Under the pieces are notes generated by a model. The model was given only the letters and a program-made list of their open reading frames with translations, was not told the DNA's origin and searched no databases. A stretch of 64,000 nt of DNA from Agelas oroides (taxonomy: Eukaryota > Porifera > Demospongiae > Agelasida > Agelasidae). Positions 26,529-63,990 of the stretch are shown piece after piece. Numbering within the stretch: position 1 is the stretch's first letter; every line of letters begins with the position of its first letter. The translations under genes and the position numbers were made by a program. Where the stretch lies: the NCBI GenBank assembly GCA_949130485.1, contig OX422191.1, positions 2,551,340 to 2,615,339 of the forward strand. The letters are read 5' to 3'.

Positions 26529-29500
26529 ATGGAGGATTCTGGCTCAACAGAGAAGAAACCGTGTTCGTTCTTCAAGCGGTCGGGTAGGAGAACAGCAGTG
26601 AGGAAGAGGAAGCATTCTTCGTCTGATGAAGGTAAGCTGTGAGTTTATGGACCAGGATGCCCAGGAGCCCAGGCTTTAAGTCCATCAAACTAGATCCTCT
26701 GTCACAGGGTAAGTCAGAAAAAAGGGCCTAGCATACGCCCACCCTTTCCCTTCCTTTTGTCTTAGTCTCGCAGGCCAGACTTTCATGAGGAGAGACTCTT
26801 GTCAAATTCCCATCGTCTTGTTCCTAACACCCCAAGGCGTGTTAATTCACTTAGTGACAATGGAGGCACACAGTGCCTTTTTTGCTTGTCACTTGTAGAG
26901 TGTGCCTTTTCAGAACATGTCTCAATGTATGTTCGCACCTACTTCATTAGACACCCTGCTGCTGAGGGCCAGACTCTCTCCTCCTCGTGAGAGTCTAGGA
27001 GGAAAGAGTCTGGCCCACGAGACTACTTTTGTCCTCCCCCCTGCCCACTCTCCTTCAGATGACAGTGATGATGAGTCAGCAGTTGTGAGGAGGGAGAGGA
27101 AGAAAGAAAAAGGAGGACTCTTCCAGAAGACAAACACACAGACAGCAAACAAAACCAAACGTAAGCATACGTGAGAGAGACTGCAGTAGTTAGCAAGCAG
27201 GAGGCAAAAGTAGGATGGACAGGTGGGGACAGAGAGCTGTGTTGAGGGACACCATGGCACGTCCCTTAAGGTGTCCCTTGGGGACTGAGGGTGTGGCTGT
27301 GTACATCGGTTGTCTATAGCCAGATTTCCAGACCTTCCCTGCATTAAAGGGGTAATAAGGTTGTGTTGAGGGACACCATGGCACGTCCCTTAAGGTGTCC
27401 CTTGGGGACTGAGGGTGTGGCTGTGTACATCGGTTGTCTATAGCCAGATTTCCAGACCTTCCCTGCATTAAAGTGTTACCAACAGTGATAGGTTTGGTTG
27501 CTAGGCAACAGACTAACAACTTATACATCAAATACGTATGGAAGTTGTTGTATGTTGTTTAGCAACCTGAACTTGAATAGCACAAAGTGGAAGTGACAGT
27601 GGTAGTCTCGTCCCCAGACCTCATCTGGTGCCTATATCTATTCCAGGATGCTGAAAGTGATCTGTACTAGGGTTGTTTTGGGTCTGGGTCAGAAACTAGG
27701 CAGTGTGTAACATAAACTTGCATTCTCCTGACAGAGCAGCGTAGTAACAAAATTTACTCATTTCATTGTAGCCTCCGCCCATGTTGCATTTGGTTGCTAA
27801 GTAACATCCAAGCACATACATACATGTAATGCCCTTTGGTCCACATGTATACTAGCCTCATTCCCAGGCTCTCGTGCGTGGGCACAAGAGCCTGGGAATG
27901 AGGCTACATGTATACATGCGATGATTGGCTATGAGACTGACTTGAGTTTTGTCTTTCCACTCATGCAGTCCCTGGGGAGGATGGTGGCAGTGGTTCCGAC
28001 GAGGAGGGAGGTCGAAAGGTGACCTTTTCATACAAGTCAGACAGGAAGGCAGTGCGTGAGGGACCTGTGGACATGGGAGCCACACTCCAACTGGAAACAG
28101 AACCTGAGAAGCGGGTAAATTGTTCTCTCATAGCCTGTCCCCAACCCCTCACCCTCCTTTTCTTTTTTCCAAACTATACATGTGTCTCTTTGCATTCGTC
28201 AGCAATCATCCTTTTTCCTTTAACTCATCTGTTTCTTCATCTTCCATATCATGGTGGCTACCACTTCTTCCAACACAATTTCAGCTACTTCACTATGGAG
28301 TGCCATATGTCAAAATATTCAGTTGGAATACACGGCACCGGAAATTCGGATTAGTTAGTGCACTGGTAGGGTAAGGGTTAGGGTTGGGCCAGGTGAACAG
28401 GATTTCCGGTGCCGTATGTTCCAACTGGTCCCAAGACACAATTATTCTACTTATTATATATCATGACATTTGACTATATATCATGCTATTTACTTATATA
28501 TTTTGATGTTTGCATATAACGTGATATTCATAAATATCATTATCTTCTGTCATTTGACTATATATCATGATATTTAGCTAGCTAGCTAGCTATGACTTAT
28601 ATATCTTGATATTTGCTCTGAAAGTTTCCTCTGCATATTTTGACATATGGCGCCCCATACTTCACTGTCTTCACTAGTGTTTACTGAAATGTTTGTCCAG
28701 TTGATACGCTCATGGCTTTCTGAGCATAGCTGATCATTCCTCCTGCAGCTGCATCTTGCATTGCATCCAGTGACACACTTTTCCACCCTGTCACACACAG
28801 CTTGCATGTCCTCAGTGGTGTCCCAAACAGTGGTGTTTTGGGATCTGGGACCAAATAGGCAGTGTGTAACATCTAAAAACTAAAGTTGCATTGCTTCATA
28901 CATTTTGTGAACATTGGTTCTATAAAATAACACTATGAGCTGAATGAAAGCAAAGTGCTATTGGAGAAAGTCATCATTCTGGCATCTCTGAACAGTAAAC
29001 ATGGTTGACGGACTTTTCACTCGGGAAAATTTATTTCGATTGCTATCTTCGTCAGGCACAAATGAACACAACTAATGTAGGGGTATGTGTAAACAACCAT
29101 GAGAGTTCAAAATGGCAGTTGTTAAATCTAAGGACATTGGCTTGAGCTGCCAGTGATTGACCAGTAGGCTACGACCATCAGAGAACTACTAGTCCTCACA
29201 ATGCTACCCTTCTTTATTCATCAAACATTGGTATTCTTTATTATTTTCCAGTTGAGGGTTTGGTTTTGTTTATTACATCTGCAGGAATCAAAAGAGTCAG
29301 AACAAGCCAAGCGCAAGTACGTGGTGACCTTTGACCTCATTGCCTCATCAGCACCAGAGTCCCATTGTAGTTGGGTTCCGATTGAACTCTTTCATAATGT
29401 GCTACTGTATAAGTACAATGTACGTATGAATGAAATACGGCCTTCCTTGTCCTCCCAGGAATAAGGGCCCAATCCGTGCCCCTCTGTACCTGCGGAGCAC

Positions 29501-63564: not shown

Positions 63565-63990
63565 TAGCCTCGTTCCCAGGCCCGCGCCCAGCTTCCCGTC
63601 GCTTGCAGTACGGTTAAGCGGGAGAGGGCCTGGTACATTTTCTCACGTGAGTGACGTCACGGGTAGAAAGGCGGTAGAAAGACTTTAATTGAACGTGGGC
63701 GAGCAGGTGTGTGTCTTCACTGTTTTGGCTTGGTAAAACTCTCTGTCCTCCCGACTGTCTCGTGAATAGCGACATAAAAGCGCCTTCGTGCGCTGCTATC
63801 TTTCGACTCGGAATAGTCGCGCTCCAGTGCGTGCGTGCGAGCGAAGTTTTTTGTGGTTTACATGATGCCCACGTTCGCATAATTTGCCCTGTCCGTGACG
63901 TCACTCACGTGAGGAAATGTACCAGGCCCTCTCCCGCTTAACCGTACTGCAAGCGACGGGAAGCTGGGCGCGGGCCTGGGAACGAGGCTA
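63565..63990. mobile_element. 426-bp TAGCCTC foldback element with perfect 9-bp target duplication
   Basis: TAGCCTCGTTCCCAGGCCC ... GGGCCTGGGAACGAGGCTA flanked by GGTTTTTTG at 63556-63564 and 63991-63999. Long, nearly perfect inverted arms (about 100 bp, including CGCTTGCAGTACGGTTAAGC and GAGTGACGTCACG) surround a unique centre without a coding signal. Confidence 0.9.

Follow-up and report, generated by a model that had tools for sequence, protein, structure and literature searches.

What moves the palindromic elements found in a 64,000-nucleotide stretch of the Agelas oroides genome (the window), and how much of their sequence would such movement require? The original prediction named six foldback insertions with TAGYCTCG-like ends, held that every dated insertion had duplicated 9 bp of its target, and proposed that one Mutator-type transposase moves all of the families. 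All six insertions were found in the window, and their TAGYCTC ends were confirmed (Table 1). The duplication is exact (9/9) at five of them and matches at 8 of 9 positions at 26763, and the end sequence given for 27853 required correction, the actual letters being TAGCCTCA and not TAGCCTCG. With up to one mismatch allowed, TAGYCTCGNNSSCAGRC matches 22 times in the window versus 0.04 times in dinucleotide shuffles; 12 of the 22 matches lie outside any pair with a 9-bp duplication (up to one mismatch allowed). Both ends are present in the asymmetric element at 5638-5960, and a matching 9-bp duplication was not found for it; the flanks of a 91-bp pair at 7754-7844 (GTGTCACAG/ATCACATAG) are not duplicated. 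Like the segmental copy listed in Table 1, the end at 42482 derives from segmental duplication and not from a new insertion. The 2174-bp element contains 465-bp inverted arms (35594-36058 and 36467-36931). No long reading frame was found in the four window elements checked, the longest stop-to-stop stretch being 96 aa. Elsewhere in the window, long reading frames on the minus strand at 46004-49171 and 44960-45457 resemble, on visual inspection, the polyprotein and integrase of an LTR retrotransposon.

Table 1. Elements, ends and target sites in the window (C- and T-type ends are defined in the text)
Feature	Position	Strand	Target duplication or remark
Asymmetric T-type element ("class 3")	5638..5960	+	left TAGTCTTGTCCCCAGACC, right end TAGTCTCGTGCCTAGCCC
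T-type palindromic element, 263 bp	26763..27025	.	CTTTTGTCT/CTTTTGTCC, 8/9 match
C-type micro element, 54 bp	27853..27906	.	CATGTATAC, 9/9; junction matched at 19 genome places
T-type element, 2174 bp	35490..37663	.	GGGCCTAGT, 9/9
C-type palindromic element, 123 bp	38890..39012	.	GCAGCAAGG, 9/9
C-type palindromic element, 444 bp	40123..40566	.	GCTATAGAC, 9/9
Segmental copy of 38890-39012	44141..44263	.	no independent insertion
Empty target site	52698..52706	.	single GCTATAGAC; paralog of 40123 insertion
Unpaired C-type end with inner GCCTGG	57363..57440	+	
C-type palindromic element, 426 bp	63565..63990	.	GGTTTTTTG, 9/9

The element at 40123-40566 inserted as a mobile element, and the window supplies its own empty site. 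The paralog at 52698 lacks the 444-bp element: tract 39557-40124 runs uninterrupted in 52133-52701 (93.8% identity) and tract 40565-42111 in 52696-54242 (99.5% identity), and a small indel ~15 bp away distinguishes the left flank. A second empty site was found among loci sampled from the genome (259 Mb in 141 contigs; L-numbers denote sampled loci and C-numbers contigs), where L068 is the paralog to an 831-bp element at L065:407-1237, with a small indel nearby. Another pair of loci, L059 and L060, is 99.5% identical over 2.2 kb, and an edge insertion, of which one side was read, is present in L060 only. The last 54 bp of this insertion are identical to the last 54 bp of that in L016, and an exact 45-bp stretch of the L060/L016 subfamily occurs at 46 genome places. 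The L059/L060 difference and the identity of the tracts beside the 40123 insertion to the empty paralog may be signs of recent movement. The window contains segmental duplications of 96-99.5% identity (40565-42111/52696-54242, 37297-39257/42109-44508 and 33658-35149/53472-54965), and one of these lies in a reading frame of 951 aa (52898-55753).

Genome-wide, exact TAGYCTCGNNSSCAGRC occurs 28,887 times (14,249 forward and 14,638 reverse), a lower bound because the motif counts one spacing only; the reversed control occurs 0 times. The window and loci L001-L084 were scanned without guidance for pairs with TAG...CTA termini, a TIR and a perfect duplication k bases long. The scan returned 21 distinct pairs at k = 9, all of which start with TAGYCTC, together with 2, 1, 2 and 2 pairs at k = 6, 7, 8 and 10, and 0 at both 11 and 12. 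With up to one mismatch in the duplication, the catalogue contains 29 elements, which range from 34 to 2174 bp and include ten no longer than 75 bp. The 9-bp length expected of copies across the genome therefore predominates in this sample, and duplications of 8 or 10 bp also occur, rarely (L038 and, by eye, L114 and L116). The reversed control, the shuffles, the duplication peak at 9 and the empty sites refute the idea that these palindromes are products of chance or of assembly, and leave it a negligible probability. The earlier observation of families that share ends and duplicate 9 bp is confirmed, and is larger in extent than the window showed. Side observations concern the arrangement of ends. 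On contig C1, at about 1.25-1.43 Mb, ends recur about every 16-21 kb, a spacing suggestive of a large unit arrayed in tandem. Tandem end motifs spaced every 27-120 bp (L085; C1 7241582-7241918; C2 2277143-2277324) look as if transposon ends had turned into satellite-like arrays.

The ends are of two types, a C-type with TAGC/CCAGGC and a T-type with TAGT/CCAGAC. The types are concordant at 27,370 of the 28,887 genomic ends (94.7%), the discordant forms numbering 791 and 726. A sample of 110 distinct ends, including those of micro elements, showed agreement between the fourth base of TAGY and the R of CAGRC in 104 cases (67 C+G and 37 T+A; discordant, 4 C+A and 2 T+G). An inverted inner copy, GYCTGG, is present 18-80 bp inward in 34 of 72 non-micro ends versus 2.1 in mononucleotide shuffles. 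Two of four control motifs gave 0; the others, GGYCTG (20) and GGTCYG (11), overlap the signal because both can sit inside GGYCTGG. The inner copy tracks the end type, with GCCTGG 44 times and GTCTGG twice at C-G ends, and GTCTGG 22 times and GCCTGG 0 times at T-A ends. Folding z-scores calculated with RNA energies for 81 ends averaged -1.62 versus -0.34 for their own flanks, and 31 ends versus 7 flanks fell below -2 (p = 2e-5). Each end contains the GYCT/AGRC motif two or three times, as TAGYCT, as CCAGRC and often as the inverted inner GYCTGG. From this pattern, we infer that GYCT/AGRC is a putative repeated binding half-site and that the C- and T-types correspond to two related transposase specificities; the co-variation could also simply be the descent of two lineages. 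The proposal that one transposase serves all families agrees with the shared ends but is weakened by this concordance, and a single transposase is doubtful because the ends fall into two co-varying types. At L013:1501-1813, the duplication GGGTCTGGT includes the inner motif of TAGYCTC ends, and this element may have inserted into a relative of the elements described here.

A second, unrelated end type (AAGAGCGCAT...) is present in the window, in an element at 57982-58192 (ends AAGAGCGCATAAGAA...) that also duplicates 9 bp (GACTACTAC), so duplication length alone cannot tie families together. An inverted repeat related to this MITE-like element lies at 4466-4560. MULE duplications span 8-11 bp (PMC6446971), and those of the TAGYCTC elements are 9 bp long, with 21 distinct exact examples and rare instances of 8 and 10. 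The duplication length makes the Mutator assignment plausible, but no MULE or Mutator gene was found between matched copies of these ends at the 46 loci inspected of 163 domain matches. We consider it reasonably probable that the palindromic MITEs are non-autonomous cut-and-paste elements moved in trans by a putative, most likely Mutator-type, transposase with a 9-bp stagger. Such an enzyme would recognize the terminal ~25 bp in trans, cut at TAG/CTA, and insert the element with the 9-bp stagger; GYCT/AGRC would serve as its binding half-site, in two versions for two related specificities. Internal deletion would fuse two ends into a bare ~50-bp hairpin, and the hairpin could still move because recognition would be confined to the outermost bases.

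Transposase domains are present in the genome, with at least 119 matches to MULE PF10551 (150 of 194 candidates scored), at least 44 to Mutator PF20700 and 23 to Merlin PF12762. The loci inspected comprised 38 of the 119, 8 of the 44 and 1 of the 23, respectively. A search for a longer copy encoding the transposase had been proposed; among the 46 MULE/Mutator loci (of 163 matches; flanks of 1.5-3 kb), none was enclosed by TAGYCTC ends with a matching duplication. Enclosing ends are present at L056, L063 and L084, where the 9-bp flanks mismatch at 5, 8 and 8 bases, and ends in L056 and L084 are parts of separate short elements. The 62 places containing the core of the 54-bp family (described below) were compared with all 119 MULE matches, 32 of the 44 Mutator matches and 16 of the 23 Merlin matches, and none lay within 15 kb of such a match. 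Several candidate partners were rejected. MULE group A (L049, L057, L058 and L062) has its own TIR, GGGAGGCWGTCTTTTCACCC (GGGAGGC), in L049 and L057. MULE loci L043-L046, L051-L055, L061, L063 and L064 have inverted arms with short repeats (e.g., TCCCAAAATGTCTAA or AATCAACTCCC) reminiscent of Rehavkus or Foldback, and the end that made L061 an autonomous candidate is a separate 50-bp insertion. A possible long class-3 element at C7:8024455-8029125 contains reverse-transcriptase-like sequence (three 600-bp pieces, judged by eye) and looks like a nested LINE. The inverted repeat TTAAGGTTACG surrounds the PF20700 domain in L081 and was not counted as the end of that transposase because it also adjoins the Merlin copy in L109, as a dispersed repeat of independent origin might. 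Its places (as TTAAGGTTACGRGATACAGTTTGCTCATTAATATTCAT) are L081:467 and 2835, an inverted pair around PF20700, and L109:525, beside the Merlin copy.

The same loci bear on whether the transposase instead belongs to another superfamily with 8-9-bp duplications (Merlin, P-like or undescribed), which we regard as unlikely. The 23 Merlin matches and the outcome at 46 of the 163 MULE/Mutator loci are in its favor, as is a Merlin duplication length of 8-9 bp (PMC4482050). However, in the single Merlin copy inspected, one of 23 matches, the TIR is 90 bp long (GCGG.CCAATCGTACTTGACGG...; GCGG.CCAATCG) and unlike TAGYCTCG, and this copy was rejected as a partner; the 1.6 kb read on its flanks yielded no TAGYCTCG-type end. 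Other superfamilies are excluded by published duplication lengths that differ from the 9 bp seen here: 0-4 bp for PHIS (Harbinger, ISL2EU, Spy, Pangu and Nuwa), 5-8 bp for hAT and, within KDZ, 8 bp for Zisupton/Dileera and 7 bp for Kyakuja.

How little of an element is sufficient for mobility was addressed with the micro elements. Hairpins of 34, 47, 50, 51, 52, 53, 54, 59, 62 and 75 bp were found with 9-bp duplications (one mismatch for those of 47, 52 and 62 bp), and these smallest elements are merely two ends fused. The core CCAGGCTCTCGTGYGTGGGC of the 54-bp family occurs 62 times in the genome. In 14 of 20 sampled core places, the sequence runs on into a non-mirrored interior, GAGCCTGGTACACACTG with variants, as the termini of a larger element would; the other 6 include the micro elements L094, L095 and L099 and the tandem array of end units in L085. 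The 29-bp junction pattern of the 54-bp unit is more specific to the hairpin, with 8 exact and 11 one-mismatch matches making up its 19 places. Nine of the 19 were read (the window, L099 and seven more), and eight of these are 50-54-bp units; L112 has a rearranged context and was left out of the unit count. The eight units represent seven sites, L099 and L111 having common flanks, and five of the seven have direct duplications. The duplications differ between the window, L099/L111 (AACCACTTG) and L113 (ACTCTGTTG/ACTCTGTGG); by eye, they measure 10 bp at L114 (one mismatch) and at the 50-bp relative L116 (exact). The 50-bp unit at L115 has two mismatches in its duplication. At L110 (54 bp), a direct duplication was not found, and the flanks are inverted (GGTTTTACC/GGTAAAACC). 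Since units with the same junction sit at separate sites, five of them with direct duplications, the unit very likely moved or multiplied at a size of 50-54 bp.

An opposing interpretation holds that micro elements are immobile remnants, left as scars when longer elements underwent deletion after insertion. Palindromes are prone to deletion, and the 34-bp element, which has a single genome copy in a search allowing up to 2 mismatches, could be such a scar. As a general account, however, this is very unlikely: the junction of the 54-bp unit recurs with differing duplications at the window, L099, L113 and L114, and L041 and L064 have a common loop at different sites. For the 50-54-bp family, scars are already disfavored. 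The composition of the 54-bp unit bears on its origin. In the unit, the outer 31 bp of a parental end are followed by a mirror image of the outermost ~23 bp of that end, which carries one CpG-type substitution (ACAAG for ACGAG); internal deletion between two TIRs would be the simplest origin. Foldback copying at one end was weighed as the main route to micro elements. In this scheme, annealing of the inner GYCTGG to CCAGRC would prime a copy of the outer end and so turn one end into a whole element. An inverted inner motif is present in about half of the ends, a 51-bp element in L033 retains the inner-side GGAG of the parental end, and the inverted flanks of L110 are those expected from in-place copying. 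Set against these observations, the 54-bp unit is without the parental loop RGAGAAAAAA, its right arm (ACAAGAGCC) differs by one base from a mirrored outer arm (ACGAGAGCC), a form that ordinary deletion between two TIRs produces directly, and inverted flanks were found once only. Foldback priming is less well supported than internal deletion and unlikely as the main route, and it may account for individual cases such as the L033 junction and the inverted flanks of L110.

MITEs in general are short, non-coding and high-copy, with TIRs and a fixed duplication length. The TAGYCTC elements are alike in each respect (non-coding status having been determined from reading frames in four window elements), but differ in their two co-varying end types, in the frequent recurrence of the end motif, inverted, further inside and in the multiplied 50-54-bp units. 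No tandem minisatellite repeats, a trait of Rehavkus and Foldback (FB), were found in the micro elements read. Among named systems, the Tm1 Mutator/Foldback elements of root-knot nematodes are close: they have duplications of 8-10 bp, mostly 9 bp, with no target consensus, and share with the TAGYCTC elements the 9-bp duplications, a largest group that is MITE-like and composite TIRs (PMC3169594). Tm1 TIRs are made of tandemly repeated ~14-bp units and have asymmetric outer motifs of 7 bp, whereas the ends described here are TAGYCTCG hairpins; 61 elements were analyzed there, compared with ~29,000 ends and units down to ~50 bp here; and Tm1 includes a member with a Phantom-like transposase, whereas none was found here among 46 MULE/Mutator loci (PMC3169594). 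The 9-bp length lies within the MULE range, but MULE TIRs are commonly hundreds of bp (PMC6446971), whereas the outer 20-30 bp seem enough here. Rehavkus likewise has 9-bp duplications, with TIRs of 26-400 bp, but it carries a minisatellite close to one terminus and encodes a PHD-finger transposase (PMC6446971); the TAGYCTCG elements read showed neither. The ends themselves were not described in the portions available of the open-access literature searched, including PMC6446971, PMC3169594, PMC4482050, PMC10045372 and PMC12730594; bioRxiv and most subscription papers were outside the scope of the search. A full-text search with the end letters gave a single match, in the indexed part of PMC11707394, which concerns human stem cells.

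In its most far-reaching form, the proposal is that the hairpin ends are coded by two letters through TAGYCT, CCAGRC and GYCTGG, with two specificities and a dispensable interior, and that bare ~50-bp hairpins are complete, multiplying transposons; we hold this combination to be doubtful. DNA of ~50 bp is too stiff for looping, and the enzyme may for that reason use an extruded cruciform, or a pair of separate copies, as its substrate in place of a looped element. If the 50-54-bp unit transposes, the full cis requirement of a eukaryotic cut-and-paste transposase would fit within ~25 bp per end, and the canonical looped transpososome would have to account for the synapsis of such close ends. 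The two co-varying end types would constitute a natural specificity code that can be compared against sister transposases. With ~29,000 ends in 259 Mb, these elements are a major shaper of this genome.
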